Source: Oscillospiraceae bacterium
GTDB lineage: Bacteria; Bacillota; Clostridia; Oscillospirales; Ruminococcaceae
NCBI GenBank assembly: GCA_021199855.1
Contig: JAJQHD010000014.1
Coordinates: forward strand, 1-43,947
Direction: 5' to 3'
Length of the DNA stretch: 43,947 nucleotides
The notes beneath the pieces are model-generated. The model saw only the letters and a list, made by a program, of their open reading frames with translations. It was not told the DNA's origin and did not search any database. The translations under genes and the position numbers were made by a program. How positions within the stretch are numbered: position 1 is the stretch's first letter; each line of letters starts with the position of its first letter. Below, piece after piece: positions 10,664 through 43,677 of the stretch.

Positions 10664-10665
10664 TT

Positions 10666-11292: not shown

Positions 11293-11334
11293 ATCAAGTT
11301 TCCTTTCTGCATATAAATTTTTTGCGATTGACTA

Positions 11335-11784
11335 TTAGTAAGAAATAGTAGTTGACGTAAACGTCAATGTTTTTGCGGTTTTATTGGAGATAAAGAACTT
11401 ATAATCTCCTTCTTCTGCAATGTTCATCGTACAGGTATATGTGTATTTTCCAAATATCGAACCTGATGAAGACCAATTACATACTGTATACACTCCGTTG
11501 CAATAATACCCCATTTCAATATTATTTTCGTTTGAAGATAATTTTGTCTTCAATACAATAGCGTTCCCAGAATTGATATGATAATATCCACTAGTTGAAG
11601 TATTTGATCCAAGAATCCAAGTATAACCACTTTCGAGACTATAACTACCATAGGTATAGTCAGTACTTCTCAAGGGATTATATGATTCCACTACTTTGGC
11701 CACTTCGCCACCTGCATAGACGCCTATTGCTATAATCAGACAAAGAACTAACGCAAACAGAACACTCGCTACTTTCTTTAACAT
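11335..11784 (-). CDS. Small secreted protein of unknown function
   Basis: The 149-residue product begins with a signal peptide or N-terminal anchor (MLKKVASVLFALVLCLIIAI, probable cleavage after VYA). The mature part is rich in Ser, Thr and Tyr and looks like a beta-strand-rich fold; two Cys pairs may exist (YYCNG, TVCNW, YTCTM). TAAAGGAG stands 8-9 bp before the ATG. The gene lies between the M56 peptidase (stop at 11797, 12 bp away) and the secreted zinc protease, so it is probably co-transcribed with both. No family is recognised. It could be a substrate, inhibitor or partner of the protease; none of these can be shown from sequence. Confidence 0.65.
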   Translation of the reverse strand: MLKKVASVLFALVLCLIIAIGVYAGGEVAKVVESYNPLRSTDYTYGSYSLESGYTWILGSNTSTSGYYHINSGNAIVLKTKLSSNENNIEMGYYCNGVYTVCNWSSSGSIFGKYTYTCTMNIAEEGDYKFFISNKTAKTLTFTSTTISY

Positions 11785-24252: not shown

Positions 24253-24382
24253 AAGAAAGCTCCCATCGTTTCGATGAGAGCTGAATTTTTATCCTTCGTC
24301 CCATCGAATCAAGCTTTAGCACCTTACCAATCGGCAGGTTGCTGTGTGGTCAACGGGCTTGTCCCTCGCACACTCTTTATGG
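24253..24382 (-). promoter_or_regulatory. SAM-I-class riboswitch with terminator
   Basis: On the minus strand the RNA begins ATAAAGAGTGTGCGAGGGAC, continues AAGCCCGTTGACCACACAGC and AACCTGCCGATTGGTAAGGT and then GCTAAA. The core matches the S-box consensus: AGAG, P2 GTGTG/CACAC, the GAGGGA..GCCC..TGA block, GCAACC and GGTGCTAA. A terminator follows, AGCTCTCATCG-aaa-CGATGGGAGCT then TTTCTTT (24253-24281). The sequence TCGATGGGA occurs both in the aptamer 3' part (24299-24307) and in the terminator 3' arm, so the aptamer copy can pair with the terminator 5' arm as an antiterminator. P1 pairing is not obvious, so a SAM-I/IV variant is possible. High SAM should switch the downstream gene off. Confidence 0.75.
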
Positions 24383-24431: not shown

Positions 24432-25001
24432 TTATTTGAACACCCTCTCCCAAATCCCCACAAGCTCTTCATAGCACTTCTTGGTTTCGGGATAGTTTGC
24501 CATGTCGCAGAGGGCGTCCTTGATGCCGGTGTAGTACCACTGCTGTTTCTCGAATGGCGCATTGAAGCGGTTCCAGAGCTCCTCGCCGATTTCGTTATAA
24601 TCCGACTCGATGCTCCGCATATTCGAGAGTTTATCCGCCATGACGAGCATCTTAAGACGCTTGTCGGCAGTCCTGAGTTCCTCGATTGCAAAGGTTTTGC
24701 GTTCAAGCCAAGTCTTAGACTTGTCCTCACTATGAGCGGCAACAAGGCTGGCAACGTCCTCGCCAAAACGCTCACGGATTTCGTCTACGGTCGCACCGGT
24801 GTCCTCAACCGTGTCGTGGAGAAGTCCGGCAATCATAAGATTTGTGTCCGCCTTCATCGAATGAAGAATCTGCAAGACCTCAATCGGGTGCAGAATGTAC
24901 GGGCGATTCGTTCCTTTGCGGAGCTGTCCTGCGTGCTGATTGACGGCAAAAATGATAGCTTCGTTAAGCTTCTGGTTTTCTTGGGTGATGGATTCGGTCA
25001 T
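24432..25001 (-). CDS. HD-domain (p)ppGpp hydrolase-like protein (small alarmone hydrolase)
   Basis: The 189-residue protein is a stand-alone RelA/SpoT-type HD domain (MESH1/SAH-like), expected to remove the 3'-pyrophosphate from ppGpp with a manganese ion. Visible motifs are H in FAVNQHAGQLRKG, the HP in YILHPIEV, HDTVEDT (the HD pair and catalytic ED) and MADKLSNMR (the last metal Asp). No synthetase, TGS or ACT domain is present. AAGGAT lies 8 bp before the ATG at 25001. It starts 24 bp after the McrB-N-domain protein, in the same direction, so it is the last gene of the Sel1 operon. A related nucleotide phosphohydrolase role is the alternative. Confidence 0.85.
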   Translation of the reverse strand: MTESITQENQKLNEAIIFAVNQHAGQLRKGTNRPYILHPIEVLQILHSMKADTNLMIAGLLHDTVEDTGATVDEIRERFGEDVASLVAAHSEDKSKTWLERKTFAIEELRTADKRLKMLVMADKLSNMRSIESDYNEIGEELWNRFNAPFEKQQWYYTGIKDALCDMANYPETKKCYEELVGIWERVFK

Positions 25002-25025: not shown

Positions 25026-26198
25026 TTAAAGATACTCACGGTATGGTTCCAAGGCTTCTTCTGCGTTTTTAACTCTGCTATAAACTTTTTGAGGCTCGCA
25101 TAAATCCTGCCAATAGTCTTCATCGGTCTCAGCGAGACTTTCGAGAATGCCGTCATCAGTCTTGGCTAACTTACTTAAGAAGATATGCGGAGCATTTAAC
25201 TTAGATACATTGCCGGTATCATCGGTCACTTCAATCATGCACTCATTATCACACGACTTGACAGTTCTTCTCTGATACTTCGCCAGATACCCGATTCCTA
25301 CCTTGTAGTATAGCACAGTGCCTTCTGTAAGGTGCGACTTCACAAAACCAAGCTTTTCATCGAGCTTACGCTCTTTTTCAGCCGCTTTTTCATAGTCAGC
25401 CAGCAACTCTTTTGCCTTGTTCTGTCTCTCTATCCGAAGCTTTTTCTCAGCCGTATTAAGGCGGCTGTATTCTATGCCTTTGTCAAGGTCGTAGGTGTTA
25501 TAGCAGTAGATAATATCGAACAGAAGAAGGTGCTTGCTCTCATCGGGAGCAAAGGCGGCACCGTCGGGCAGTTCATATCTGCTCTGGTTAGTTGCAAGAA
25601 GTTCGGGACAATCGTTGATTTGCTCTATTGCCCAGTTGCACATTCTATAGTAAACATCAAGCTTCACGTTGAATCCAGAATCCCAGTCGTCGTAAAACTC
25701 TACGCAATCTGCAAATGCACGGGCTTCCGTACTCTTATACATATAGTGAACATCCGGCTCATACAAGAACAGATAACCCATTACTGCATGGAAATCCTGC
25801 CTATAGCGGAAGCTTCCCAGCTTATACTTTTCCAGAAGCTCGTTACTCTTGGCGGCAAATTCACTGATTTTTCTTTCAAGAACGTGGAGGTCTCCGCCAT
25901 AGTCGGAATACAGATCGATAAACATCTGACGGACGGTATCCGGCTCATGCTTGGCAAACTCAACTAGTCCGTTAAACGGCTGAATCATACCGTTGTCAAT
26001 CATTATCCATGTATTCGACTTGACTTCTTTAAGAGCCTCGACAAACTCTGCTCCGCTTTTCGATAAAGCCTCATCCATAAGCCTGTGGAATTTCCCGGTC
26101 ACTATCCACTTGACATATTCCTTATGCTCTTGGTTATTCGTGCGCTCGAAGTTTTCTATGTAGTTATGGAAAACTTGCTTGATGTGGTTGGAGTTCAT
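25026..26198 (-). CDS. Orphan protein with McrB-type N-terminal domain
   Basis: The 390-residue protein has no ATPase motifs. Residues about 60-175 align with residues about 65-180 of the McrB protein at 31475: VEFAKHEPDTVRQMFIDLY against IEGFAKSAPEEVRTMFRNLF, RKISEFAAKSNELLEKY against TRIEQFKESSVELLKKY, then YxD, a YLxL motif and PD-x-Y-YK. The middle (about 265-305) is a charged coiled coil, and the end holds a small KOW-like or beta region followed by NAPHIFLSKLAKTDDGI, also found in a relic at 29741-29995. The ATG overlaps the stop of the Sel1 gene before it (ATGA), so they are translationally coupled. In McrB this region recognises target DNA; here it may be an adaptor. Function is otherwise unknown. 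Confidence 0.72.
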   Translation of the reverse strand: MNSNHIKQVFHNYIENFERTNNQEHKEYVKWIVTGKFHRLMDEALSKSGAEFVEALKEVKSNTWIMIDNGMIQPFNGLVEFAKHEPDTVRQMFIDLYSDYGGDLHVLERKISEFAAKSNELLEKYKLGSFRYRQDFHAVMGYLFLYEPDVHYMYKSTEARAFADCVEFYDDWDSGFNVKLDVYYRMCNWAIEQINDCPELLATNQSRYELPDGAAFAPDESKHLLLFDIIYCYNTYDLDKGIEYSRLNTAEKKLRIERQNKAKELLADYEKAAEKERKLDEKLGFVKSHLTEGTVLYYKVGIGYLAKYQRRTVKSCDNECMIEVTDDTGNVSKLNAPHIFLSKLAKTDDGILESLAETDEDYWQDLCEPQKVYSRVKNAEEALEPYREYL

Positions 26199-27418
26199 GG
26201 GGCTTCCTCACTGTTCTGATTATTTTCTAATCTCTTGAGTGCCTCAATAGCACTTGGCTCATTCTTATCCGCTGCAAGCTGGTAAAGCCCGATGGCTTCT
26301 TCGATGTCCTTGTCTACAACACAGCCATTTTCAAAGAACCAACCGCATTTTGCAAGGGATACAGGGTCTCCAAGCTTCGCTCCCTGATGGTAATATTCAA
26401 ACGCTATGTGCATATCCTTCTTCACGCCGAGACCTTTTTCGTAAAGTTCACCGAGCTTGGTGAAGCAGAGACAATCATCGGCAGAGGCTCCGAGGCGGTA
26501 GTATCTTCTCGCCTTGGCATAGTCTTTTATGACACCTTGTCCGTTCTGGTAGCATAGACCTGCATGATAGCAACAGGTCGGCTCTCCTCTGTCTGCAAGA
26601 CCTTCAAACAGCGTGAACGCCTTCTTATAGTTCTTTTGGGCGCCTCGACCATAATAGTAGTTGAAGGCTGTTTTGATCATACCTGTCTGGTTTCCACAAT
26701 CAGCGGCTTTTTTATACCACTTGAAAGCTTCTTTGTAATCCGGCTCACCCAAATCATCCGATTCATAGATGGTGCCAAGGGCTATCATAGATTTTTCATC
26801 GCCCTCATCGGCGAGAACTTTGTAGAGTTCAACGGCGAACTGTGGGTCTTTCTTTACACCCAAACCGATAGCATGAACACGAGCTAAATTTCTTGTTCCG
26901 ATGAGGCTTCCGGCTCGTGACGAAGCCAGAAACAACTTATTCGCAATGTCGTAATTTTTCTTAAAGATAGTTCCGGACGCGAAAGCGACTCCAAGGTCGC
27001 TGATAAGCTCCGACTTTTCTCCCTCCCAGTTTGGGTTGAACTTAAGGCGAATCGTCGGGACATCGGCGGCTGTAAGGAAATCCTTTCTGATATGTGGAAT
27101 TACATCGAGGTCGTCCTCTGTCACATCAATCAGAACTTCGTTCCCTTCTTCGTCCTTGACATACTTAGCCACCGCCACCTTAGAGTATGGCTTGTATGTA
27201 TTGTAGTTGTAGAAGACCATGCAGGTGCGGTAATCTTTGGTATTGTATACTGTCTCATAACCAACCTCTTTACCTGTGCTTCCTTCCAGCCCCAGAAGCT
27301 TAGCGGTCGGGCTGAAATGCTCCTAGCTCATTTTATGAATGATAATGTGGCTCTCTCCCTCAGGCTCAGGTCCCAAGATAAACACATTGTTCCCGTTCGG
27401 ATCAGAATTTTTAATCAT
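26195..27418 (-). pseudogene. Sel1-repeat protein C, interrupted by an amber codon
   Basis: The full frame starts at the ATG at 27418, which overlaps the stop of Sel1 gene B and has GAGAGGAAGC upstream. It is open to 26195 except for TAG at codon 32 (27325-27323). In the alignment to Sel1 protein B that position is Trp (HTLHWNEP against HKMS*EHF), so TGG to TAG is likely. Translation could restart at an ATG at 27220, leaving 341 residues. The N-terminal domain (VAVAKYVKDEEGNEVLIDVT) is shared with protein B, and seven or so Sel1 repeats follow. Sel1 repeats are helical scaffolds for protein-protein binding. The stop overlaps the start of the McrB-N-domain gene. Confidence 0.75.
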
Positions 27419-28520
27419 CAGCTTCCTCTCCTTTCAGCCTCTTTACCGCTTCCACTGAATAAGGCTGCCCCTTTTGGGCTGCTTCTGAGTAGTAATCATA
27501 AGCAGCATTCAGATCTACCGGCACGCCCAGTCCGTATTCATAGATATATCCCATCTCCGCTGTGGAATCAACATCTCCGTAAATATAACCTCTGCGGAAA
27601 TATTTCCTCGAGAGATCGAGATTCTGCTTCACACCGCGTCCAAATCTATAGTGACAGCCCATAAAGTAGCAGGAATTGACGTCTCCATCGTCAGCAAGCT
27701 CCTTGAACAAAGGAAAGGCTTTTTTGTAATTCAAGCGAGTGCCCTTTCCAAAGTAATAACAGAGAGCTAGATGATATTTTCCGCCTTCGCATCCCTTCTC
27801 GGCAGCTCTTTTGAATAGCTTGAACACTTCATCGTAATTCGGTGTAATGTCTTCTCCAGACAAATATATCAGCCCAAGGTTCAGCATTGCATCAATGTCA
27901 CCCATGTCGGAAGCGGCTTTATAAGCTTCTATTGCCTTTGGAATATCCTTTTCGATACCTCTGCCGTGTTCATACATCCTCCCAAGATTATATAGGCTTG
28001 TCTCATCGCCCTTGTCGGCGGCTATTTTGAAGAGATTGTAGGCGGCGGTGTAATCCTGCTCGAAAATAGTGCCATTTTCGTATGCACAGCCGAGGTCGTT
28101 GAGGATATCTGAATCGTCCCCATCCCATTCAGGATTCAGAACCAGTGGAATGACTATTGTCTCATCAAGGGTGAGGTATCTGTCTCTGATGAATGGGATA
28201 ACATCGAGGTCGTCATCTTCAACATCAATAATCACTCTGTTGCCGAAATCGTCGGTTATGTACTTTGCAACGAAGACCTTCGGGTAGGGAACATCTATGT
28301 GTGGATTGTGGATGACCATGAAACTGCGGTCGTCCGTCTCGTTGATGACAAGCTCCACTCCGAGATCCATATCCTTGTCAGAATTCATTGCAAGAAGCCC
28401 TGCGATCTCAGAAGGCTCATTCCAGTGAAGCGTGTGCATGATAACGTGGCTCTCGCCCTTTTCCTCCGGCTCAAGGAAGAACACCTTGTTGCCGTCAGGA
28501 TTGGAATTTCTGATTTGCAT
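27411..28520 (-). CDS. Sel1-repeat protein B
   Basis: This 369-residue protein has no signal peptide and is likely cytoplasmic. A N-terminal domain of about 130 residues (HNPHIDVPYPKVFVAKYITD, DLDVIPFIRDRYL) is shared only with Sel1 protein C. About seven Sel1 repeats follow, each of the type AAY..F..AADKGDETSLYNLGRMYEHGRGIEKD, forming an alpha-solenoid. The end is KRLKGEEADD. GAGGAGGTAAC precedes the ATG at 28520. It lies 45 bp after Sel1 gene A and overlaps the next gene, indicating one transcript. The role is inferred to be a scaffold or adaptor within the neighbouring McrBC-linked set. Confidence 0.82.
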   Translation of the reverse strand: MQIRNSNPDGNKVFFLEPEEKGESHVIMHTLHWNEPSEIAGLLAMNSDKDMDLGVELVINETDDRSFMVIHNPHIDVPYPKVFVAKYITDDFGNRVIIDVEDDDLDVIPFIRDRYLTLDETIVIPLVLNPEWDGDDSDILNDLGCAYENGTIFEQDYTAAYNLFKIAADKGDETSLYNLGRMYEHGRGIEKDIPKAIEAYKAASDMGDIDAMLNLGLIYLSGEDITPNYDEVFKLFKRAAEKGCEGGKYHLALCYYFGKGTRLNYKKAFPLFKELADDGDVNSCYFMGCHYRFGRGVKQNLDLSRKYFRRGYIYGDVDSTAEMGYIYEYGLGVPVDLNAAYDYYSEAAQKGQPYSVEAVKRLKGEEADD

Positions 28521-28565
28521 AATTGTTACCTCCTCATATCAGTGTGAAATAGGCGCGCCATGTGA

Positions 28566-29747
28566 TCAAGTCGCATCGCTGTACTTCTTCTGAATGAATT
28601 CTTGAGCTTCTTCTGAGATTTCTCGAATTTCATTCATAATAGAAGAGTTTCCAAAACCATATGGCGAATCCGGCGGTTCAGAGGGATCATATCCACGAAG
28701 CCTGTCCATAATCTCACATTTATCATCAGCTTTCCATTCTCCATCCTGATAAAGGTAATATCTTCCGGACTCCATTTTCCCGACAAGAGAACCATTAATC
28801 AGGTAATATTTCTTCTCCGGCTGACTCTCCGTCCTAACATATTCATCTGTTCGTGAAGCATTATGGTCCTCGTCTGCACCAAGACGCTTTAATGCCTCCT
28901 GAGCATTTTCTTCTCCCTGCTCAGCTGCTGTCTTATAATATTTTTTTGCCATCTCTATATCGGCTTCTCCAATATCTCCATTCTCATAAAGCCAGCCTAT
29001 ATTTGTATAGGCAAGCCAATCTCCCAATCTGGCAGCTTCCTGATAATAATCCAGTGCAGCGTTGATATCTTTTTTCACGCCTTGTCCTTTCGCATACATT
29101 ACGCCCAGCTGATTAAAACAATATGCGTCATCCGCCAGTGCCCCACGCCTGTAATACCGTCTTGCCTGTTCATAATCCTTCGACCTTCCCAGACCGTCCT
29201 GATAATATAATCCGACATAGAAACACGCATCTTCATATCCTTCATCCGCAAGCTGTTTGAAAATCGGAAAGGCTTTTTTGTAACTTTTTCTGGTTCCATA
29301 TCCCCAGTGATAACAGTTTGCATAGTTAAAGAGTCCTTTTTTATTACCAGATTCAGCCGCTTTTTTATACCATTTAAAGCACTTTTTATAATCCGGCTCT
29401 CCTAACTCTCCATATTCGTATATGTTGCCCAGATTTATCATTGCTGTCGAATTGCCGGCATCAGCTGCTTTTTCATAGATTTCTATAGCCTTTTGGACAT
29501 CTTTCTCTATTCCCAATCCATTCTGATACATCCAGGCAAGATTTGAAAGTCCCTGATTGTCTCCTGCTTTTCCTGCCAATTGATAAAATTGAAGAGCAGC
29601 TTTGTAATCCTGTTCAACGAATGTTCCTTTTTCACAGGCATAGCCTAACCGTGTCAGAAGTTCTGCTTCTTCTTTGCTCCAACTCCAGTTCTCTTTTGCT
29701 TTTATTGAAATAGTCGGCACAATGCCTTCATTCGAGTTTTTTACCAT
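28566..29747 (-). CDS. Sel1-repeat protein A
   Basis: The start is placed at the ATG at 29747 (393 residues), with AAGGAG 11 bp upstream; the frame is open back to a TTG at 29819, but that region is the relic of another gene. The ATG overlaps the stop of the relic frame (ATGGTAA). About eight Sel1 repeats (for example LGNIYEYGELGEPDYKKCFK and NQLGVMYAKGQGVKKDINAA) fill residues 35-290. The C-terminal 80 residues (YYLINGSLVGKMESGRYYLY) form a different small domain absent from proteins B and C. It lacks their long N-terminal domain. No signal peptide or membrane segment is seen. Confidence 0.82.
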   Translation of the reverse strand: MVKNSNEGIVPTISIKAKENWSWSKEEAELLTRLGYACEKGTFVEQDYKAALQFYQLAGKAGDNQGLSNLAWMYQNGLGIEKDVQKAIEIYEKAADAGNSTAMINLGNIYEYGELGEPDYKKCFKWYKKAAESGNKKGLFNYANCYHWGYGTRKSYKKAFPIFKQLADEGYEDACFYVGLYYQDGLGRSKDYEQARRYYRRGALADDAYCFNQLGVMYAKGQGVKKDINAALDYYQEAARLGDWLAYTNIGWLYENGDIGEADIEMAKKYYKTAAEQGEENAQEALKRLGADEDHNASRTDEYVRTESQPEKKYYLINGSLVGKMESGRYYLYQDGEWKADDKCEIMDRLRGYDPSEPPDSPYGFGNSSIMNEIREISEEAQEFIQKKYSDAT

Positions 29748-29995
29748 GAAATTACAAACTCCTTCCTTTGATTCGGCATACAACTTCTTTGTTGTGCTTT
29801 CCAGTATGCTCCTTTGCAATTCTCTCGATAATACTCATAATAAACTTCTATTAGCATCTTAGATATACCCTCTTTTTTCAGCTTCCGCATCACGTCACGC
29901 AACATCTCATCCAGATAAGAAAGCGCCTTCTCCCTTATCTCGTTATCGGTCTTATCTAATTCACTTAAAAAGATTTGCAGAGCGTTCGGTATTAT
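29741..29995 (-). pseudogene. Relic: C-terminal end of a second McrB-N-domain-type protein
   Basis: In this frame the strand reads IIPNALQIFLSELDKTDNEI, close to the end of the protein at 25026 (NAPHIFLSKLAKTDDGI), then about 65 further charged residues ending ISW before TAA at 29743-29741. The front of the gene is missing. The stop overlaps the start of Sel1 gene A in the same way that the intact genes overlap. The last 10-12 codons of the DUF6508 gene run into this relic in another frame, showing a deletion or recombination joint near 29995. Confidence 0.65.
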
Positions 29996-30395
29996 CTATT
30001 TCTTCGAGTCGTTCCAACCACTTTTCGATACAGCCGTTTTTGAAAAAGTCGAGAAGTGCACCATCGCAGAATCTTTCAGCACGAACTGCACCGGTAAGAA
30101 GTGCTAATACACATTTGCTATCAAGCTTGCTGACGTCGGCGTTTTTCATCGAATTTAATTCCCATTCAATGCCGTTATCTTTCAGGATGTCTCCGTATAA
30201 TCGAAGTTCATATTCTGGGTGTTCATTTGTAAAGGTGTAGATAGAGCTTATCAGCTCGTCCACAATTTGAGTATAAAGCACAAAAGGCATCTGTATCGGG
30301 TGTTCTGGCATTCCGTTATTCTCTCTATCTGTAACCCATTCACCGATACTATCTTGCTTCAGTAACGGGAGAAATGAAGTCAAAGATTCGTACAT
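29961..30395 (-). CDS. DUF6508-family protein
   Basis: The 144-residue protein matches the DUF6508 pattern as I know it: SFLPLL...IGEWVTDRENNG, PEHPIQMPFVLYTQIVDELI, GIEW, MKNADVSKLDSKCVLALLTG and AVRAERFCDGALLDFF. It is cytoplasmic with no membrane segment. The function of this family is not known to me; it is frequent beside accessory and defence genes in Firmicutes. AGGAGGGCG precedes the ATG at 30395, 15 bp after mcrC. Its final residues (about NTERSANLFK) derive from the relic sequence at the recombination joint and are probably not native. Confidence 0.75.
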   Translation of the reverse strand: MYESLTSFLPLLKQDSIGEWVTDRENNGMPEHPIQMPFVLYTQIVDELISSIYTFTNEHPEYELRLYGDILKDNGIEWELNSMKNADVSKLDSKCVLALLTGAVRAERFCDGALLDFFKNGCIEKWLERLEEIDNTERSANLFK

Positions 30396-30410
30396 AGTTG
30401 ACGCCCTCCT

Positions 30411-31478
30411 TTATTTAATATCCAACTCCGGGAAGAATTCTTTTGCTATCCCGTTCAGCCTGCTCTTTATCTCTGAAAACTCACAATTCAGGTCGAGAGT
30501 CCTGACGTCAATCCTATTACCGCTCATTCGGTAGGACTGCTCTGGCTGGATGGCTTCGTCGGTATGGGCATACAAAAGCATTCCTGAAACAGTGTGTTGC
30601 CTGTCTCCAAATTCTGCGTCCTTGTTTTTGACATATGTAAAAATCTGATACAGGTTATGCGAGCGCAATGTACGGGTTCCAAACTGCACCTGCATGGTGC
30701 GGGAGTAATACTTTGCGTCTATAATCAGCACAGTGTCCCCGTGTGAAAGCATAATATCGCTCTGCATTTTCGGAAGCATCGTTTTCTCATCGTTATCAAG
30801 TGCCCAGTCAATCTGCGATGCAGAAGCGTGAAGCTCCGGGATCTCTTTTCTGTAATACTCAAGAATAAACTTCTCATACAGGTGATACATCTGTTGGCTG
30901 TCTATGAAGGATGCAAGCTTGTTTTCGCCACGCTCGGTAGTCAGGAGCATTCCCTGCAGAATGAATTGACACAAGCTCACGAGAATCCTATAGTTCTGAT
31001 TATTTCTGTGGAACCGAACCCGTTCCCACTGAATTGAAGACGGATCAATCAAGTCTATTCCTGAAAAGTAGAGCATCTCTTTCTTTAGAATATCTTTGTA
31101 CTCAATCTTTACTTCGTCGCTTTTCAACAGAAGCATGGCGGTAGTTTTAAGAATCTGGTTCAGGAGATTGTTTTCCGACAGCTCATCATACTCACAAGCC
31201 AATTTCTGCCTACGGTCAATCTTGTGCCTTATCGTTCCGGGCATATCAACCCTGCCACGCATGGTCGAGAGGTCCTCCGACTTGTTCTGATACTCCCGAT
31301 AGAGCCCCTGCTTCAGCTGAACGCCAATACCGTTGCCGAGGATAGCCGCAAACAGGTTTTGGACGTTGTCGAACTCTTCTGCTTCAACGCTCTCAAAGCT
31401 TGACTGCTTCAGAGCCTGAAAGGCATAAGCCAGCATATAGTAGATGTTCTTTACCAGAACATGTTCATTCTGTTTCAT
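30411..31478 (-). CDS. mcrC: McrC-family subunit of a McrBC restriction system
   Basis: McrC is the nuclease partner of the GTPase McrB in modification-dependent (type IV) restriction. At 355 residues it is of usual length. The N-terminal part (LVKNIYYMLAYAF, MRGRVDMP) is typical, and the PD-(D/E)xK nuclease core is visible: SDIML (Asp near 236) and LIIDAKYY (Asp and Lys near 251-253). Its ATG overlaps the mcrB stop by 4 bp (ATGA), so the two are translationally coupled. The gene appears intact. Confidence 0.92.
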   Translation of the reverse strand: MKQNEHVLVKNIYYMLAYAFQALKQSSFESVEAEEFDNVQNLFAAILGNGIGVQLKQGLYREYQNKSEDLSTMRGRVDMPGTIRHKIDRRQKLACEYDELSENNLLNQILKTTAMLLLKSDEVKIEYKDILKKEMLYFSGIDLIDPSSIQWERVRFHRNNQNYRILVSLCQFILQGMLLTTERGENKLASFIDSQQMYHLYEKFILEYYRKEIPELHASASQIDWALDNDEKTMLPKMQSDIMLSHGDTVLIIDAKYYSRTMQVQFGTRTLRSHNLYQIFTYVKNKDAEFGDRQHTVSGMLLYAHTDEAIQPEQSYRMSGNRIDVRTLDLNCEFSEIKSRLNGIAKEFFPELDIK

Positions 31479-33937
31479 TTAACTACTCCATGCAGTATAT
31501 CACTCCACTTTTGCACTTCGTCAGGCTCATCAAACCAGTATTCTTCCAAAGTCGGGATAATATCGAAGTCAACGACTTCCTGCATCTTTTCTTTCGTGCA
31601 TTCATCCCAATTGCAGAAGTAGCTGTGACCGATGCAGAAGCCTTTTCCAAGCGACTTATCTTCTGCAATCTTTTTATTCAACTCAACGACCTCTTCAATA
31701 AGCCGATTGAAGGTCTCGTTGTTCAGGCTTTCCTGATATTTCCTGAACCCTTCCGAATCAAATGCCGGTTCCATTTCAACAAAGCTGAATCTGCGGCGCA
31801 GGGCATAATCAATCATTGCAAGGCTTCTGTCTGCCGTGTTCATCATGCCGATTATGTAGAGATTTTTAGGGACATGGATCGACTTTCCTTCATAAGGCAA
31901 AGTCGCCTGGGTTCCACGGTAATCCTTTTCAATCAACATCAAAAGCTCACCGAAAATCTTGCTCATATTTCCACGGTTGATTTCGTCGATAATGAAGAAG
32001 AACGGCTTGTCAGGCTGATTTGAAGCCTTCTGGCAGAAGCGATAGAAAACGCCGCTTCTCAGCTCAAACCCGCCATTTTCTGTTGGTTTGTATCCCATGA
32101 TGAAATCCTCATAGGAATAATTCTGGTGAAACTGGACAAGCTGAACCCGCTCCTCATCCTCTTCACCCATAATAGAGTAAGCCAATCTTCTTGCGGCATA
32201 TGTCTTTCCGACACCCGGTGCACCCTGCAAGATGATATTTTTCTTGTTTCTGAGAACAGCTACGAGAGTATCGTATTTTTTCTCGTCCATGAAAACATCA
32301 TTCAGGAATTTTTCTTTACTATATTTTTCGACATCTTTTTCTTTGACAATAGGATTCTCAGCACGAATCAAGTCCATAATGAAGTCATACTCATCCTTGG
32401 TGAGTTTGAAAAGGCTGCCTTGTTGCATACTGAAATATTCCATATCCGATAGTTCAGGGCAGGATTTTAAGGTAACATAATCTATAGGCGAACTGAGTTG
32501 CTCAACTTTTTCAAAGTACAACACTTTTCCATCCTGCTCAGCACTGACTTTAGCGATTGCTACAATCTGCTTTGTAGGTGATGACTCGTACCCGATAATC
32601 ATATCCCCAGTTTTAGCATCCAAAAAGTTCTGGAATATCCGCCTTTTGTGCCCACTTTCGTTGTATAGCGTATAAGTCTGAACCTCACCAACTTCAATAT
32701 TTGAAAAGCTCCAAATCTTTGGACTGGCATTCAACATCCAATATCTACGGTCAAGATTCTCATCTTCAGCTTTGGTCTTAGCATACAGCTCAACATTATT
32801 CAAATCCATATTATCCAACGCCTCCGCAAGCTCGTCTCTCAGTTTCCAGACGAAGTTTCCATCTTCATTATCATTAGCATTCCTGCCGACATAGAGAACA
32901 GACCAATAATACGGCGTTCCATCGCTTCTGGTATCAGGCTTAACATGCTTCGTTTCACAAATCCTTTTTGCTATGCTTGTAGTATTGCTGATGTAGAAAT
33001 TCTTGTCCTCGCCGTATTTTTTCGACAGTTGCAAACAAGTTGCTTGTCCACCATAGTCTTTTATTCTTGCAACTACCTGCAAACCTTTTTCGGTGAATAC
33101 ATCAGGATTGTGAAGAAGCTCTGTCCAATCTGATACGGTCAGTTTGGGCGAATAGTTGGTGGGGAATATGAATTCATACTTATCTCTTGCTGTTTCGCCA
33201 TTAGCATAGCACCAAGAAATGTGGAAGCACACATCCATTGTCAATGTTCGATAGGATGGATCTGACCAACAATCATCAGAAAGATGTTCTTTGAGAAGAC
33301 TTGTCAACTCATCATCAGCACTTACATAATCACAAATCTCGTCATAAAGACTATTAAAATTTCTGAGAGTTTTCTCTGCGCTGGTATAATCATTTTTGCC
33401 GATAGTTTCAATCTGATAGCCACTATCAAGTACTTTAGAAACTTTACTAGCAATACCGTACTTGTAGATATAGTATTTATCCGGATAACGAAGCCAAAGA
33501 TATGTGCTAATTACGTTCTCATCCTGATAATGATTGCGCGCTTCTCCTCCATACTTCTTTAGGAGTTCAACAGAGCTTTCTTTAAACTGCTCAATTCTGG
33601 TGATTACATCAACTCCGCCACGTTCATTAAACAGATTTCGGAACATAGTTCGAACTTCCTCAGGCGCACTTTTTGCAAAGCCTTCAATCATTGCCCTTGG
33701 GAAATGTCCCGCTGTAGACAAAAGAGAACCCGTTTGCGACAGTGATCGCTTAAGCATGTCAGCAAAGTCTGCTGCTTCAATGTCCCAGTTGTCCTGAAAT
33801 GTTTTGACAGCAACCCATTTAAATCGCTCATCACCGCATTTAATTCCTGTCTTTTTGTCTTTCTTTTCCCATATGTATGGATAAAAGTCCTTTTTGTAGA
33901 GTTCTAAATATTCCTGTAACTTGGTCTTATCTATCAT
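31475..33937 (-). CDS. mcrB: McrB-family AAA+ GTPase with N-terminal McrB-N-like and EVE-like domains
   Basis: McrB binds modified DNA through its N-terminus and drives McrC cleavage through GTP hydrolysis. The 820-residue protein has three parts. Residues about 1-180 are a helical domain shared with the protein at 25026. Residues about 395-535 resemble an EVE/PUA-like base-flipping domain (YWMLNASPKIWSF at its start, then GDMIIGYESSPTKQIVAIAK). Residues about 555-810 are the AAA+ domain: Walker A GAPGVGKT, Walker B FFIIDEINRGNMSKIFGEL, and MMNTADRSLAMIDYALRRRF, where the McrB signature MNxxDRS is clear. GGAGGATTTGAA precedes the ATG at 33937. EVE domains in such proteins are thought to read modified cytosine. 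Confidence 0.93.
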   Translation of the reverse strand: MIDKTKLQEYLELYKKDFYPYIWEKKDKKTGIKCGDERFKWVAVKTFQDNWDIEAADFADMLKRSLSQTGSLLSTAGHFPRAMIEGFAKSAPEEVRTMFRNLFNERGGVDVITRIEQFKESSVELLKKYGGEARNHYQDENVISTYLWLRYPDKYYIYKYGIASKVSKVLDSGYQIETIGKNDYTSAEKTLRNFNSLYDEICDYVSADDELTSLLKEHLSDDCWSDPSYRTLTMDVCFHISWCYANGETARDKYEFIFPTNYSPKLTVSDWTELLHNPDVFTEKGLQVVARIKDYGGQATCLQLSKKYGEDKNFYISNTTSIAKRICETKHVKPDTRSDGTPYYWSVLYVGRNANDNEDGNFVWKLRDELAEALDNMDLNNVELYAKTKAEDENLDRRYWMLNASPKIWSFSNIEVGEVQTYTLYNESGHKRRIFQNFLDAKTGDMIIGYESSPTKQIVAIAKVSAEQDGKVLYFEKVEQLSSPIDYVTLKSCPELSDMEYFSMQQGSLFKLTKDEYDFIMDLIRAENPIVKEKDVEKYSKEKFLNDVFMDEKKYDTLVAVLRNKKNIILQGAPGVGKTYAARRLAYSIMGEEDEERVQLVQFHQNYSYEDFIMGYKPTENGGFELRSGVFYRFCQKASNQPDKPFFFIIDEINRGNMSKIFGELLMLIEKDYRGTQATLPYEGKSIHVPKNLYIIGMMNTADRSLAMIDYALRRRFSFVEMEPAFDSEGFRKYQESLNNETFNRLIEEVVELNKKIAEDKSLGKGFCIGHSYFCNWDECTKEKMQEVVDFDIIPTLEEYWFDEPDEVQKWSDILHGVVK

Positions 33938-34233: not shown

Positions 34234-34752
34234 TCAGATGTCAATCTCAAACGTCTCGGTATTATTGACAAGGTCGAGGGCGGTCTGAATTGCTGTGATT
34301 TCAGCGACGGTGCGCTCGTAGTCGGACTTCGCCTCGGCAATGTCGTAGTTCGAGTACTTGAATTCGGAGACAGCTGCGGTGGTAGTGCGGGTGCTCATCA
34401 GTCGTTCTTTCTGTACTCTCATCGACATGGTGGCGAGCTTGCGCTTCCTCGCCGACAGCTGTGGGAGACAGACAAGAGCCTCGTCAATCGTCATCCCATC
34501 GGTATCAGGCAAAACCGTCGTCACATTGAAAATGTTTATCGCGTGCTTGACCGTGCGGATTTTCCTCTCGAGCTCTGAGAGCTGAGCCTGATAATCAGCA
34601 TAGTCGTAGTCAGGGCGAACGGTCTCGAGATCCTCATTGGCGAACGCTCCGAAGGTGTCGAGAGAACGCTCTCTGGCAGCCAGATTGTCGTGCTCCTCAG
34701 TAAGTGTTCTTAAGAGCTTCGATGCCTCTGCAGGTGTGTACTTCATGTTCAT
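34234..34752 (-). CDS. Conserved coiled-coil protein of unknown function
   Basis: The 172-residue protein is mostly helical: MKYTPAEASKLLRTLTEEHD, then LSELERKIRTVKHAINIFN, then LSARKRKLATMSMRVQKERL, and ends TALDLVNNTETFEIDI. I recall close relatives as hypothetical proteins scattered in gut Firmicutes but know no function. GAGGAGGAAA lies 7-8 bp before the ATG at 34752. It has its own promoter with the conserved upstream element shared with 22730-22800, and sits between the ATPase gene and mcrB in the same direction. Confidence 0.75.
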   Translation of the reverse strand: MNMKYTPAEASKLLRTLTEEHDNLAARERSLDTFGAFANEDLETVRPDYDYADYQAQLSELERKIRTVKHAINIFNVTTVLPDTDGMTIDEALVCLPQLSARKRKLATMSMRVQKERLMSTRTTTAAVSEFKYSNYDIAEAKSDYERTVAEITAIQTALDLVNNTETFEIDI

Positions 34753-34872: not shown

Positions 34873-35589
34873 CTATTCGTCCGATTCGTCCAAAATGTGC
34901 CGGAGAACCTGCTCCCGATGGTTGATGAACAACTCCATCACCTGATACTGGCTGGTGTCTTCATAGCGACACTTGTGTATTTCTCCGTCGTCAAAGCCAA
35001 GAAGCTCAGCGTTCGGAATGCCCAAGAGAATCGGCGAATGGGTTGCGATGAAGAACTGAGCACCGGCTTCTGCATTCTTATAAATCTCATACAGAAACGC
35101 CAACTGCGATTGCGGAGAGAGTGCAGACTCCGGTTCATCGAGAAAATACAAACCATATGGCACAAAGTCTTGCTCCGCAATGGTCAGAAATGCCTCACCG
35201 TGCGATTTGACGTGCAGAGTTGGTTCGTTGTAGTAGTATTCTTCATATGTCGCTATGTTATAGTAGGACTCCGACCTGAGAAAGAAACCGTGCTTCGGTC
35301 TTTTCATGCCTTTGGACAGCCTGACATCCTTGTATAGTTCAGAGTGAGAGTCGTGTGTTGAAAACAGGTAATTCTCAGTTCCGCCTTCAGGATTAAATCC
35401 GAATGAAATAGCCATAGCCTCAAGCAGGGTAGATTTCCCCGTCCCGTTTTCACCGACAAAGCAGGTTATGGGGCTTGAGAATTCAAGATAATTCAGCTTG
35501 CTGATGGCAGGAATTTTTCGAAGATAGCTTTCACGGCTTATTTTGAACCAGTCGATTGTGAGGCTGTTTATCAGAAGCTCACTATTCAT
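34873..35589 (-). CDS. AAA family ATPase (ABC/SMC-like, COG3910 type)
   Basis: This 238-residue stand-alone ATPase has Walker A GENGTGKST (about 46-54), a signature-like SHGEAFL (about 130), Walker B YGLYFLDEPESAL (about 148-160) and a switch His in THSPILL. The layout is that of short ABC-type ATPases without membrane partners, such as the COG3910 group. The end is LRHILDESDE followed by TAG. AAGGAGGG precedes the ATG at 35589. It lies between the WYL regulator and the coiled-coil gene on the same strand. Its role in the defence island is unknown; no nuclease partner is adjacent. Confidence 0.85.
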   Translation of the reverse strand: MNSELLINSLTIDWFKISRESYLRKIPAISKLNYLEFSSPITCFVGENGTGKSTLLEAMAISFGFNPEGGTENYLFSTHDSHSELYKDVRLSKGMKRPKHGFFLRSESYYNIATYEEYYYNEPTLHVKSHGEAFLTIAEQDFVPYGLYFLDEPESALSPQSQLAFLYEIYKNAEAGAQFFIATHSPILLGIPNAELLGFDDGEIHKCRYEDTSQYQVMELFINHREQVLRHILDESDE

Positions 35590-35669: not shown

Positions 35670-36722
35670 TTACGGTTCCTGCTCCAGAGTCTCTCTGACC
35701 TTCTCCCTGTATTCCTCCGCCACCTCTTTCGGCACGGTGACCTTCATCAGCTTGCCGAACTGGAACAGCCAGCCCCAGAATGGCGGGGAGAGCTGGACTT
35801 TGACCCTTGCAGTGACCTGCCCGTCCTTCCTCTGCTTCATGACGGTGTCCTCGCCGAAGCGGTCGTAGACGGCACCAACGAGACTTGGGTCGAACTGAAT
35901 GGTGATGGTTCTCGGCTTGCCGCCGTACATCTTGAAGACCTGCCCGGTGTAGGTCGACATGGAAGCCCGAAGCTCCGAAGCCTTCTCGCAGATCTTGTCC
36001 TCAAGAATCTCGACATCCTCCATGCGGTCGATGCGATAGTTGGCGGTCGAGTCGTGCTTCGGGCTGTAGGTGCTGAGGTAGTAATTGTCCTCGTTGAAGA
36101 CGAGCGCAATCGGCTCGACGACGTAATGATGTCCTTCCCGGCGATAAACTCTCTCGTGGTTCATGTCAAGGTCATAGTAGCGGAAAACGACTTTCTTCTT
36201 TTTGAGAAGAGCGGTCTCAAGGGCATCAATATTCGAGTAGACATTCTCGTTCGAGTGCTTTCTGGTGTTGAAAAGAACTTTGTTTTTCTTGAGAAGCTCC
36301 GCCCGACGACCGCCTCCGAGCATGGCAATCTTGTCGATAAGCTCGTCGGTCTTTTCTTCCGTGACAAAGCTCGCCGCCTGCACGGCATCAATGAGAAGCT
36401 TAAGCTCTGCAGTCGTGAAGCTGACTTCGTCGCGCGCATTGCGGCTCTTTTTCTTCTTCGGGACATTGTCGCCGACCATGTAATAGCCCTTGAACTTTCC
36501 GATGCGGACCTCGTGGACGACAATCCCGATTTCGTTGAGAGCCTGAACATCACGGGCGACGACACGTCTGTCGCACGGAATGCCCAGACTCTCCATATAG
36601 ACGCAGATTTCCGGCGTCAGGAGCGGTTTCTCAGGACTCGACTCCCGCCGCAGCAGTTCAACGAGCAAGACGAGCTTGCTCTTCTGCCAGTTTTTCATGT
36701 GAGTAGTTGGCGTAACAGACAT
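35670..36722 (-). CDS. WYL-domain transcriptional regulator
   Basis: The start is placed at the ATG at 36722, 5 bp after GGAGG, rather than at 36743. The 350-residue protein has an N-terminal winged helix (KLVLLVELLRRESSPEKPLL, DRRVVARDVQALNEIGI), a central WYL domain (VFRYYDLDMNHERVYRREGH, VEPIALVFNEDNYYL) and a C-terminal WCX extension. WYL proteins often sense nucleotides or DNA fragments and repress or activate defence genes. The gene begins 24 bp after hsdR and reads in the same direction, so it is probably part of the restriction operon and may control it. Confidence 0.9.
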   Translation of the reverse strand: MSVTPTTHMKNWQKSKLVLLVELLRRESSPEKPLLTPEICVYMESLGIPCDRRVVARDVQALNEIGIVVHEVRIGKFKGYYMVGDNVPKKKKSRNARDEVSFTTAELKLLIDAVQAASFVTEEKTDELIDKIAMLGGGRRAELLKKNKVLFNTRKHSNENVYSNIDALETALLKKKKVVFRYYDLDMNHERVYRREGHHYVVEPIALVFNEDNYYLSTYSPKHDSTANYRIDRMEDVEILEDKICEKASELRASMSTYTGQVFKMYGGKPRTITIQFDPSLVGAVYDRFGEDTVMKQRKDGQVTARVKVQLSPPFWGWLFQFGKLMKVTVPKEVAEEYREKVRETLEQEP

Positions 36723-36745
36723 GGCACCCTCCAAAAGATACAAAA

Positions 36746-39916: not shown

Positions 39917-41110
39917 TCAAACAAACATCTTCTCAAGACAACTCTTCTTAACCCTCACCAACTTCTCTACCTTACACTGCTGTTGAGCAATAAGGCTATC
40001 AAGTTCAAGAAAGAAGCGTCCAATTTGCTCTTGCTCTTGATAACTGGGACAGAACAATTTAAATTCCGCATACTCCTGTGCATTAACGCCAGGCTGTCCC
40101 GAACGCTGTGAAGTCAATCGGATAAACTGTGAATATTGCTCTGTTAGTGTGTTCTGAAATACAAACTCTGAACTATATTCTGGGCGAACTCTGCCCCGAA
40201 TAAGGAAGCCAGCGTAGTAAACTAATCCGTCAGTTTCCTTGTAAATAAACGTTTTTCCGACACTTGCTCCTGTTCTTGCAAAAACAATGTCACCTTCCTG
40301 TAAACGATAGTCATCAGCATAGGTAAGGTCAATATCTGGTGATGTTATATCGGAATCCATAAATGTTCGAGTCTCATCATCTATATCGGTGATACGAATA
40401 TATTTGTTTTTGCCATCAAATTCTTTTGCGGCGACATTTAACCCATATGAGAAAGAAGAACATATCTCCCCCAACTTCCTCCGTTCCCACTCACCCGTAA
40501 ATCCCTCAAAGCGAATTTCCGGAACATTTGCACCATTCTTCGGAAACATCTTCTCAAGCATGGATCTTTTAATGCTCACCAGCTTTGTGTACTTGCGCTG
40601 ATGAAGGGAGATAAGGTGGTCGAGGAAATCAAAGAAAGTAGCTATTTGCTTTTGTTCCTCTATGCAAGGAATTGAAATATCCATATCGGCAATCATTTCA
40701 TATCTGACACTATCAACCGAAGTTTTTGCGGTCATCATCATTACTCTGTTGTAGAATTTTTCAGAGAAGAGATAGTAAAAATACTTTGCTATAATCTCAT
40801 CCGAAAAGCCGTACATTCTGTAAACGCGCTGATGTAGGTCATATTTTCCATTGACATAGTGGAAAACTTTTCCCGTTCCAACTCCGTCACCGACGGTTAA
40901 AACAGCCTCTTCATCAAATAAGTATTTATTGCTTCTTTCTATAATCGGGGAACGCACATAGAAAGGATATATGCCGTCTTTCACATTATCCTGTGTATTA
41001 CTCTTACCAGTTGAAATACTGCAAACATCTTTAATCTTCCTCTGTTCCCACTCTTCCGTGAAACCAGCAAATCTTATGGCGGGGGTTTGGGGTTTGGGCA
41101 TTTTAGGCAC
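39917..41110 (-). CDS. hsdS: Type I restriction specificity subunit HsdS
   Basis: HsdS recognises the bipartite target for the type I enzyme and the methylase. The 397-residue protein has two target-recognition domains, each introduced by a near-identical motif (RFAGFTEEWEQRKIKDV near 13 and RFEGFTGEWERRKLGEI near 205). Two conserved helices close the halves (KYTKLVSIKRSMLEKMF near 185 and KVEKLVRVKKSCLEKMF at the end). The internal repeat at protein and DNA level allows half-gene exchange. Its ATG overlaps the hsdM stop by 8 bp. It appears intact, unlike hsdM and hsdR. Confidence 0.93.
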   Translation of the reverse strand: MPKMPKPQTPAIRFAGFTEEWEQRKIKDVCSISTGKSNTQDNVKDGIYPFYVRSPIIERSNKYLFDEEAVLTVGDGVGTGKVFHYVNGKYDLHQRVYRMYGFSDEIIAKYFYYLFSEKFYNRVMMMTAKTSVDSVRYEMIADMDISIPCIEEQKQIATFFDFLDHLISLHQRKYTKLVSIKRSMLEKMFPKNGANVPEIRFEGFTGEWERRKLGEICSSFSYGLNVAAKEFDGKNKYIRITDIDDETRTFMDSDITSPDIDLTYADDYRLQEGDIVFARTGASVGKTFIYKETDGLVYYAGFLIRGRVRPEYSSEFVFQNTLTEQYSQFIRLTSQRSGQPGVNAQEYAEFKLFCPSYQEQEQIGRFFLELDSLIAQQQCKVEKLVRVKKSCLEKMFV

Positions 41111-43650
41111 CTCCTAAGAGAGATTTGAGTTCGGCGAGACCTTTGAGGTCGAATTCGTTGCCTTGAAGGTCGTCAAGAAGACTGCCGAGGCTTTGCTCGG
41201 TGGCTTTGATTTCCTCTTCCACCTGCGAAAGAGTAGTGTCGTATTTTGTGCAGATGGCTTCTAACTTCGAGACGAAATCGCTTGTGACGCTTTGCGGCAG
41301 GGCGAGAATGCTACTTACAAGCGGATTTATCCACTTTGTCCGAAGAAGTGCCACTGCCTGCTCGTCGGAAAGAGCTTCGATAAGCTCTTTTGTCTTTATG
41401 TGAAGCTCGGCTTCGCCTGTCTTGAGCTTTTGTTTAAGGTCCTTTTCCTCAAGGATGAGCTTCTGCGCCTCCTTCAGAATTTCGATGACCTCCGGCTCGG
41501 CGTCCTTGTCTTTGATGGCTTTCTTGAGCTCTGCCGGCACAAAGCCGTCCTCCGAGGCAAAGGGCTTTTCCTTGTCCTCCTCCGAAAGCTCGTCAAATAA
41601 GCTTTCTTTTTCGCCGGCTATCTCGGAAAGGCGATTGTCGATGGCGTCGAGCTCGGCTCTCTCTTCGGCGAGGAGCTCCTTTTCGACAAGCTCGAACTGG
41701 AGCACATGCCCGACCCAGCCGTCCTGCACCTCTTCTTCGTCCTTGCCTTTCTTCTTGATGACCATGTGCGGGTCAACCTGCTTTATGGCGCCGACGCCCT
41801 CGGTCTGGATGATTTCAAGGTCGATGGAGATGGTCTGCCAAGCCTTGTCAAGAAGCTGATAGGCGTCGTAGCGGTTTACAAGCGGGATGTTCCTGAGCCG
41901 CTCAAAGATGTTGTCGCTCAGCACCGATTCAGCCCTTGCAGTGTTGACCACCTGCATTTTTGCAATCAGTTCATTGTCCAAGAACTCGCCGAAATCGTCG
42001 AAGGCTTCGGAATATTTCGAATAGAACGAAAGAATGTCGCTGTGGTTCTGAACTGTGGATTTAAGGTCGTCAACCTTCAGCTCGCAATAGTCGCTGTTAA
42101 TCGGGCGGAAGAGGTCGTTTTTAAGGTTTGGGAAAGCATCCCAGTATTCGGAGAGGTCCCGAAGTTCGCTTTCGGGAATCCCGCCGAACATGGAGGAATA
42201 AATATCCCAGCTTTCAGCCTTTTCGGAGGAATCGACATAACGGGGAATGTTGAGGTTATAGTCGTTTTGGCGGATTTCTTCGCGGGAAACAAGCTTCGAG
42301 AACTTGCTGACGTTCTCGCGGGAGACAATCACGTCGACAATTTTCTTTATGTCGCAGGCGCGGAGGACGTTGTTCTTGCCGACCTTTTCAAAGCCCTTGG
42401 AGGCGTCGACAATCAGGACGTCAGTGTTGTCGCGCTTCTGTTTCAGAACCATGATGATGGTGGGGATGCCGGTGCCGAAGAAGATGTTTGCCGGAAGCCC
42501 GATGATGGCGTCGATGTTGTTGTTCTCAATCAGATTTCTGCGGATGGTGCCTTCTTCTCCGCCACGGAACAGAACGCCATGCGGCAGAACGATGGTCATG
42601 ATGCCGTCGGGCTTCAGGTGATAGAGGTCGTGCAGAAAAGGCATAGTCTGCCTTGCCCTTGGGGGCGATTCCATAACGGGCATATCTCGGGTCGCTTTCC
42701 TTGTCCGTCGGGTTCCATGCCTGGGAATATGGAGGATTCGAGACAACGGCGTCGACATAGAGCGGGTCATAGGTGCCGACAGGGTCGTTGTCGTCGAAAT
42801 AGGGCCAGTCCTCTTCGAGCGTGTCGCCGTTTCTGGTGACGATGTTGTCGGGGAGAATGCCCCGCATGACAAGGTTCATACGGGTGAGATTATAGGTGTT
42901 CTCCTTGAGCTCCTGCGCATAGTACATGATGTGGTTGCTGTCGCCCATATATCTGGCGACGGATTTGCCTATGTTGATAAGGAGTGAGCCGGAGCCGCTT
43001 GTCGGGTCATAGATTTTAATCTCGGTGCGATCCTTAAGATGGTTCGCAACAATTTCGGACATCAGAAGCGAAACCTCGTGCGGAGTATAGAACTCTCCGG
43101 CTTTCTTGCCAGCATTAGCCGCAAAGTTGCTGATAAGATATTCATAGATGAAGCCGAGCACATCGTAATCCTGCTTGCCGTCCATGGGAATGTCTTTGAT
43201 AAGATATATCAGGTCGCGGATGGCTTTCGTCCTTGCACCAGAATTTTCGCCAAGCTTCGAAAGCCCGGTCTCAAGAGTCTTGAAGATTCCCTCGAAGACT
43301 TTTTTGTGGGTCGGGTTGATATTTCGGTTGAAGGCGGAAATGGCATCGGTAACATTGCTCGCCGAGAAATCGCTTCCCATCGCCAACCATGTGGAGAACA
43401 GATTCTCATACGAAATGAAGTAGCCGATATTCTTCCGGACAGATTCAACGGTTTCCTTGTCCTCCTCCGTGAGCTCCGGCAGATATTCGTCCGTCCAGTC
43501 GTTCTCCTTGAGATACTTCACTTCCTTGTCGGAAAGGAACTTGTAGAAGATGAAGCCGAGTATGTAGTCCTTGTACTCATTGGCTTCGATTTTGGATCGC
43601 ATTTTGTTCGCCGATTCCCAGATTTTCGATGCAAGCTGCTGTTTGTTCAT
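41103..43650 (-). pseudogene. hsdM: Type I DNA methyltransferase subunit HsdM, frameshifted
   Basis: HsdM is the adenine-N6 methyltransferase of the type I system. The start is the ATG at 43650 with GGAGGAAG 7-11 bp upstream. The first frame is normal through GKADYAF and then reads nonsense (SARPLSPEARRHHDH); the normal continuation LHDLYHLKPDGIMTIVLPHG is in the next frame. The joint lies at the run of four bases at 42636-42639 (T on the coding strand), with one base gained or two lost. Otherwise domains are complete: HsdM_N helices, SAM-binding DPTSGSGSLL, catalytic NPPY (VVSNPPYSQ) and a long coiled-coil C-terminus. The full protein would be about 850 residues. It heads the hsd operon. Confidence 0.88.
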
Positions 43651-43677
43651 GTTGACTTCCTCCACTCACTTGTAAAA

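Follow-up and report, generated by a model that had tools for sequence, protein, structure and literature searches.

The window analysed here, a 43,947-nt stretch of DNA from an Oscillospiraceae bacterium (contig JAJQHD010000014.1 of assembly GCA_021199855.1), carries on its minus strand the genes McrB, McrC, DUF6508, Sel1A, Sel1B, Sel1C, ORPH and HD, in this order. ORPH denotes a protein that shares the N-terminal domain of McrB (the N-domain). A sequence-only reading of this DNA had joined these genes into one extended McrBC defence module. The named genes are real and co-directional, with overlaps or short gaps between them, and Pfam backs every named family except ORPH; the HD gene falls just beyond the interval 25026..33937 to which the set had been assigned. 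McrB and McrC overlap by 4 nt, as do Sel1C and ORPH, and the remaining gaps are 15 nt (McrC-DUF6508), 141 nt (DUF6508-Sel1A), 45 nt (Sel1A-Sel1B), 190 nt (Sel1B-Sel1C) and 24 nt (ORPH-HD). The hairpin 3′ of HD is the sole minus-strand terminator-like site that a pattern scan found within 24-35 kb; the scan is weak, with 13 sites on both strands against 8.6 expected, and a promoter scan was uninformative (16 found, 19.3 expected).

Table 1. Positions of the genes and features discussed (window coordinates unless a locus is named).
Feature	Position	Strand	Domains and evidence
WYL-domain transcription factor	35670-36743	-	PADLOC WYL E 5e-27
ABC-type AAA ATPase, 238 aa, AriA/PtuA-like	34873-35589	-	PADLOC AriA E 9e-18
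172-aa protein, upstream edge of exchange slot	34234-34752	-	function: no assignment
McrB	31475-33937	-	N-domain ~1-240, EVE 398-522, GTPase AAA 567-717
McrC nuclease	30411-31478	-	PF10117 6e-38
DUF6508, final gene of McrBC cassette	29961-30395	-	PF20118 1.5e-13
Sel1A, seven Sel1 repeats	28566-29819	-	PF08238 1.5e-51
Sel1B, six Sel1 repeats and own N-terminal region	27411-28520	-	PF08238 1.7e-41
Sel1C, six Sel1 repeats, start shortened in window	26195-27220	-	PF08238 5.7e-43
ORPH	25026-26198	-	McrB-type N-domain 1-232, linker, putative UvrD-tudor-like C-terminal part ~285-345
HD_4 hydrolase, RelA/SpoT-type without synthetase	24432-25001	-	PF13328 2.8e-23, above cut-off
Terminator-like hairpin 3′ of HD	24258-24282	-	11-pair stem, pattern match only
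D-x8-E-V-K family gene	L049 11216-11836; L050 5227-5895; L055 3943-4617; L065 11152-11769; L068 6875-7444		invariant pattern; adjoins ORPH

ORPH and McrB are clearly related over their N-terminal parts. BLASTP aligns the two proteins with 30% identity over 175 aa (E 3e-14), and a profile-profile comparison of seven McrB N-termini with 30 members of the ORPH family aligns residues 2-232 of ORPH with residues 3-239 of McrB over 216 columns (E 3e-35), which together rule out a chance similarity. The sequence-only reading was thus right that ORPH carries the McrB N-domain without the ATPase; the similarity it had placed at about residues 60-175 is genuine, and the domain actually extends over about 230 residues. 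When six-frame translations of the window and of loci L027-L076, L120-L132 and L142-L149 were scanned, most of these loci having been chosen for carrying the domain, the N-domain profile matched only ORPH-type proteins, McrB and fragments thereof. The N-domain of ORPH (residues 1-232) has a net charge of -13.7. The tail, at about residues 285-345, is weakly tudor-like, with an E value of 0.0073 in one of 10 rows and of 0.049-0.5 for UvrD-type PDB chains.

ORPH has no significant match in Pfam and none in PADLOC, Pfam-type searches gave no match to an ADP-ribose-binding family, and NCBIfam yielded only a tannase match at E 0.001, far below its cut-off. Over the 15 pairs of the six close copies described below, the ratio of nonsynonymous to synonymous substitution rates (dN/dS) is 0.07-0.14, so ORPH is under purifying selection.

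The McrBC pair itself looks complete from its motifs. McrB has a Walker A motif (GAPGVGKT) at residue 572 and NTADR, of the NxxD type, at 700; it matches AAA_5 (2.4e-24) and EVE (1.4e-8) in Pfam, and scores 310.6 bits with the NCBIfam McrB model, below the cut-off of 637. McrC passes NCBIfam NF007277 (388.7 bits, cut-off 338) and shows a D...DAK nuclease motif at 241-256 by pattern match. The N-domain family of E. coli McrB (ADAM/DUF3578) has no Pfam match in residues 1-240 of this McrB or in ORPH, and the McrB N-domain profile gave nothing convincing when searched against the PDB. As for the last gene of the cassette, a 624-aa protein at positions 9875-11749 of locus L123, directly upstream of McrB-McrC, joins an ADP-ribosylglycohydrolase (ARH) to a DUF6508-like stretch (48% identical; 22.0 bits in Pfam, below the cut-off of 23.6), a fusion that may offer a lead to the function of DUF6508.

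Exchange of the type IV genes in sister genomes

A survey of 31 genomes of the genus found ORPH with at least 90% identity in six of them, and a 38% relative in a further one (G028). The six close copies, in the window and in genomes G005, G013, G024, G025 and G029, are 90-95% identical to that of the window. G005 has the same gene order as the window, from McrB to HD. In G013, a different McrB-McrC pair is followed by Sel1B, Sel1C, ORPH and HD. GmrSD, an unrelated kind of type IV system, takes the place of McrBC in G024, where it is followed by Sel1A, Sel1B, Sel1C, ORPH and HD, and in G029, where ARH and a 107-aa gene stand between GmrSD and the same five genes. G025 has ORPH-HD without Sel1 and without type IV genes.

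The borders of the exchanged segments can be placed on the DNA. Homology of G024 and G029 to the window ends at 29.77-29.94 kb and restarts at 34.21 kb, whereas that of G013 ends at 28.54 kb and restarts at 32.78 kb. The replacing genes are GmrSD in the former (GmrSD_N 1.6e-31 and 6e-29) and another McrBC in the latter, and the first 414 residues of the G013 McrB are of the window type at 89%, its ATPase part being different. Altogether, two types of McrBC and three types of GmrSD are exchanged in the slot; behind the engine come two or three Sel1 genes with ORPH, or ARH, or both, and HD is next. The window slot has no GmrSD, and the window genome has GmrSD on other contigs. Five genomes of the genus keep the Sel1-ORPH-HD block beside type IV genes, including two (loci L043 and L045) in which GmrSD stands in place of McrBC. 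The exchangeable part of the slot is the type IV engine, while HD and, in this clade, Sel1-ORPH are the steady part. A module of McrBC only is ruled out by the sister loci which hold GmrSD among the same neighbours, and the companions, being kept with a different engine in relatives, are not specific to the McrBC of the window. The genus amounts to a natural swap experiment, with the same accessory genes and different engines in close relatives.

The flanks of the slot are mostly constant, with the WYL, AAA and 172-aa genes upstream and HD, a MORN gene and p128 downstream, apart from losses in single genomes (the 172-aa gene in G005, the AAA gene in G029 and the MORN gene in G024). The WYL gene is in the same place in L043, L044 and L045, 94-96% kept. 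The AAA gene is present in L043 and L044, only its C-terminal end is seen at the contig edge in L041, and it was not found in L045. Seven of the 31 genomes have the 172-aa gene, six of the copies being next to McrBC, GmrSD or ARH; the one in G023, 43% identical, adjoins none of these. HD matches TIGR00691 (1.3e-25) over residues 15-133 only, below the cut-off for the full protein. In each of the six close copies it follows ORPH at 24 nt, and an apparent convergent gene downstream of ORPH in L041, L042 and L044 proved to be the antisense frame of HD, which is intact there. There are 10 copies of HD (at least 87%) in nine of the 31 genomes: six behind ORPH, one fused to ARH, two after ARH with intervening genes, and one, in G008, apart from the slot.

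Ahead of the same HD, ARH takes the place of Sel1-ORPH in some loci and accompanies it in others. G019 has the order GmrSD-ARH-228-109-HD and G001 the order ARH-192-HD, and G024 keeps an internally deleted ARH relic between GmrSD and Sel1A. ARH is absent from the window slot; the sole ARH match of the window genome (G000) is on contig C17, where a second slot-like locus (L128, 10057-13249) has GmrSD followed by a 460-aa open reading frame (ORF) that combines ARH and HD. On contig C10 of G005, GmrSD and ARH form a single 871-aa ORF (L147, 3287-5902); neither HD nor ORPH was found in this GmrSD-ARH locus or in that on contig C26 of G024 (L145).

The Sel1 genes are less regular. Sel1A has interrupted frames in G005 and G029 and a shorter one in G024, and was not found in G013. 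In the relatives, the frame of Sel1C begins within the end of Sel1B; in the window, the frame upstream of Sel1C holds an in-frame TAG, so the window copy is shortened or broken. Unless they are assembly errors, these interrupted and shortened frames argue against Sel1 being indispensable. Sel1B including its N-terminal region occurs in five of the 31 genomes, each time adjoining ORPH, and its matches beyond the window genome, seen in nine of the 391 genomes searched in the class, start no earlier than residue 106 and cover essentially the repeats only. Within the genus, Sel1B comes in two mosaic alleles. These are nearly the same up to residue 175 and diverge strongly thereafter; they do not track the restriction engine present and would fit a partner-binding surface under exchange. 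Further upstream in the window, a type I hsdM (41103-43665) is split between two frames that overlap (42526-43665 and 41103-42872), which points to a broken gene or to an error of assembly, and hsdS and hsdR are long open frames.

Occurrence of ORPH outside the genus

When 84,980 species genomes were scanned by pattern, a procedure that diverged members can escape, 36 loci with ORPH emerged, six of them from the genus. Together with the window and L035, 38 loci were examined; the genome counts below refer to 37 genomes, the window genome and 36 others. The commonest identified neighbour directly 5′ of ORPH is GmrSD, on the same strand in four loci outside the genus, at distances of 12 nt (L053), 54 nt (L057), 39 nt (L061) and 142 nt (L062). 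McrC takes this position in L069, 28 nt away, where McrB lacks the N-domain (1.7 bits) and the gene after McrC, a short ORPH without the tail, supplies it. In L070, a C-terminal piece of McrC (60% over 71 residues) directly precedes ORPH, and an HD gene comes right after it; this McrC piece, ORPH and small HD (5323-11549) directly adjoin an array of repeats, with cas1/cas2/csn2-like genes upstream, the CRISPR reading being by eye only.

Type IV genes are found near ORPH far more often than their density predicts. GmrSD_N has 43 matches over cut-off in the 37 genomes, of which six lie within ~6 kb of ORPH (0.22 expected, P 1e-7), and four of the nine McrC matches do so (0.05 expected, P 2e-7); these P values are binomial, and the density expectations ignore the clustering of genes in defence islands. 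With the genus counted once, the figures are 5/32 for GmrSD (P 1e-6) and 2/32 for McrC (P 8e-4). Overall, 10 of the 37 genomes have a type IV gene over cut-off near ORPH, where density predicts about 0.27. Four of 32 ARH matches over cut-off (L045, L064, L071 and L074) are also within ~6 kb of ORPH, hence in four of 37 genomes, against 0.17 expected by a density that again ignores the clustering of defence genes (P 2e-5); the ARH of L071 is on the opposite strand, 2.9 kb away. Placing 80 stretches of GmrSD, McrC and ARH matches on the 38 loci put 12 of them, the ARH of L071 included, on loci, with the G000 matches and the L044 McrC excluded, and the positions of the near-ORPH type IV matches were confirmed by sequence except in the window and L044.

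Sel1 adjoins ORPH in only five of the 38 loci, all of one genus, according to BLAST clusters and a six-frame Sel1 profile, which removes it as a general partner of ORPH. Other neighbours were judged from 60 hand-chosen proteins, which do not amount to a complete scan and of which only a part are neighbours of ORPH. They include Nmad3 5′ of ORPH in L054, NADAR 3′ in L056 and PDDEXK_4 3′ in L066, and elsewhere LysR, PNPase, RACo, and transporter or sugar genes. In five loci, ORPH adjoins a member of a small family marked by an invariant D-x8-E-V-K pattern (Table 1); this family may belong to the PD-(D/E)xK nucleases, a reading drawn from its invariant residues (E, D and E-V-K) that Pfam (L065 and L068) and a PDB profile search did not confirm. 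A uracil-glycosylase-like neighbour in L047 and L053 was seen by eye only, and the L047 copy had no Pfam match. When type IV genes, ARH, Nmad3, NADAR, PDDEXK_4 and the D-x8-E-V-K family are pooled, 22 of the 38 loci are positive and 16 negative, a count that has no control.

Of the 391 genomes searched in the class, four have ORPH-type matches (the window genome, G153, G337 and G569, the last with its gene cut off by the contig end), and several more have McrB-type or fragmentary N-domain matches. In five genomes of one genus (G373, G413, G536, G223 and G571), frames of 165-184 aa match ORPH in its C-terminal part alone (profile 243-376). The protein search with ORPH gave two partial matches in plasmids, one in phages over ~104 residues, and none in viral contigs.

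Interpretation and comparison with known systems

Because ORPH recurs just behind two unrelated kinds of type IV system and shares a domain with McrB, we propose that it acts in trans as a partner of type IV nucleases, in a modular locus to which Sel1 and HD are accessory. We give this a probability of roughly 0.45. The N-domain would be a docking or recognition surface, which some McrB proteins carry as the same module in cis; as the module is acidic, protein contact is likelier than direct binding to DNA. The tudor domain of PcrA/UvrD makes contact with DNA or with the transcribing/repair machinery, and the tudor-like tail of ORPH might do the same. Sel1 solenoids could bind peptides, and here may hold a partner or damaged proteins, while HD would clean up a nucleotide product. 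Sel1-ORPH-HD would then work as an accessory module for any type IV engine that fills the slot.

Several points weigh against this proposal. No type IV gene or remnant lies near ORPH in 26 of the 37 genomes, several copies being beside housekeeping genes. On the ORPH tree, the type IV label needs eight changes, a total as low as this came up in 69 of 500 shuffles, and well-supported branches demand at least six of the changes; with no clustering on the tree, the partnership is not stably inherited and must have been made or lost many times. ORPH-HD stands alone in G025, the tudor assignment of the tail is weak, and the enrichment was calculated without regard to defence islands. Those 26 loci and the scattered label would also be expected if ORPH, Sel1 and HD were independent genes which merely share an insertion hotspot with type IV genes and have no functional link with them, as would the lone ORPH-HD of G025, the Sel1 frames interrupted in G005 and G029 and the HD apart in G008. 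We nevertheless regard such passengers of a defence island as unlikely, given that ORPH follows the nuclease gene in the same order and on the same strand in L053, L057, L061, L062 and L069, at 12-54 nt in all but L062, and that ORPH and McrB have a domain of 230 residues in common.

In the sequence-only reading, ORPH could belong to an enlarged McrBC system and compete with McrB, redirect it or regulate it, with Sel1 as the scaffold; this idea has become improbable. The domain is indeed present in both McrB and ORPH in the window, G005 and G013. However, ORPH stands beside GmrSD, in a locus without McrBC, in L043, L045, L053, L057, L061 and L062, GmrSD precedes it more often than McrC does outside the genus, and the McrB of L069 has no N-domain. 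Taken for mcrBC alone, the outcome that the sequence-only reading had named as refuting it, a place mostly far from mcrBC, is what was observed, 33 of the 37 genomes having no McrC over cut-off near ORPH; for type IV genes as a whole it is observed in part, 10 genomes having one near ORPH and 27 none over cut-off, or 26 if the McrC remnant of L070 is counted. The five Sel1 loci of a single genus give no support to a general scaffold. What survives of the extended defence module is Sel1-ORPH-HD, conserved beside type IV genes in five genomes; what does not is its description as an addition to McrBC, since GmrSD swaps in.

A different arrangement is possible, though somewhat unlikely: ORPH-HD may belong to a conflict system that handles ADP-ribose or alarmones, which recruits type IV nucleases as interchangeable effectors and in which ORPH binds ADP-ribosylated or nucleotide-modified targets instead of taking a direct part in restriction. 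The slot has WYL upstream and HD downstream, like a published template with WYL, an alarmone-type HD phosphatase and restriction endonucleases (PMC9503650, in its relevant section). ARH alternates with or joins Sel1-ORPH, is enriched near ORPH, and is fused to HD in L128, to GmrSD in L147 and to DUF6508 beside McrBC in L123; it is also near distant ORPH copies in L064, L074 and L071, and NADAR is next to that of L056. On the other hand, the window slot has no ARH, nor is there any near ORPH in 33 of 37 genomes, the GmrSD-ARH loci L145 and L147 do without HD and ORPH, and ORPH resembles no ADP-ribose-binding family in the searches made.

The trans-acting partner can be combined with these ARH links in a broader and more doubtful form. 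The stand-alone McrB-N/tudor proteins might be an undescribed family of trans-acting subunits for both GmrSD and McrBC, in loci which pair the restriction of modified DNA with ADP-ribose stripping and nucleotide processing, as a combined defence against phages which not only modify their DNA but also ADP-ribosylate the host. If ORPH does serve GmrSD and McrBC, type IV restriction would have a shared accessory subunit hitherto overlooked, because no model in the Pfam, NCBIfam and PADLOC versions searched matches it. A recurrent ARH link would tie the restriction of modified DNA to defence against phage ADP-ribosylation; a tie between nucleases in general and such defence is already predicted in the relevant section of PMC9503650. 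What is new is an undescribed companion family of type IV systems in a modular locus, type IV restriction itself being known.

Among known systems, the EVE-McrB class has been described before (Bell 2020, PMC7641849), and the window shares with it an McrB with EVE, Walker A and NTAD and an McrC with a PD-(D/E)xK motif. Unlike that McrBC, the window adds the 230-residue N-domain, DUF6508, Sel1 and ORPH, and sister genomes have GmrSD in the same place; compared with GmrSD systems, the slot is the same in these genomes but holds McrBC in the window itself. CoCoNuTs are likewise McrBC-derived operons with accessory genes, whereas the McrB of the window has an NxxD motif (NTAD) where CoCoNuTs have NxD, and the main text of their census has no Sel1 or ADP-ribosyl term (PMC11090510). 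A table in PMC3710099, a source on a different subject, lists AbiU2 in an operon with Sel1, as well as restriction-modification operons. Our literature search returned no paper with DUF6508 and none that combines GmrSD and ADP-ribosylglycohydrolase.

A further comparison is with the ARG-centric conflict systems, in which WYL, ARH, an alarmone-type HD and a nuclease are predicted to be host systems against phage ADP-ribosylation (Iyer 2022, PMC9503650, section 3.8); the terms McrB and GmrS are absent from its main text. The window agrees with them in the WYL regulator, the HD phosphatase and the nuclease, and differs in having Sel1-ORPH instead of ARH, which is found in the sister slots. The sister slots match this template, and the window would be a version with Sel1-ORPH where ARH stands elsewhere. 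Sel1 is not among the chaperone families named in that section, and the Sel1 solenoids might take the role that peptide-binding chaperones have in the template.

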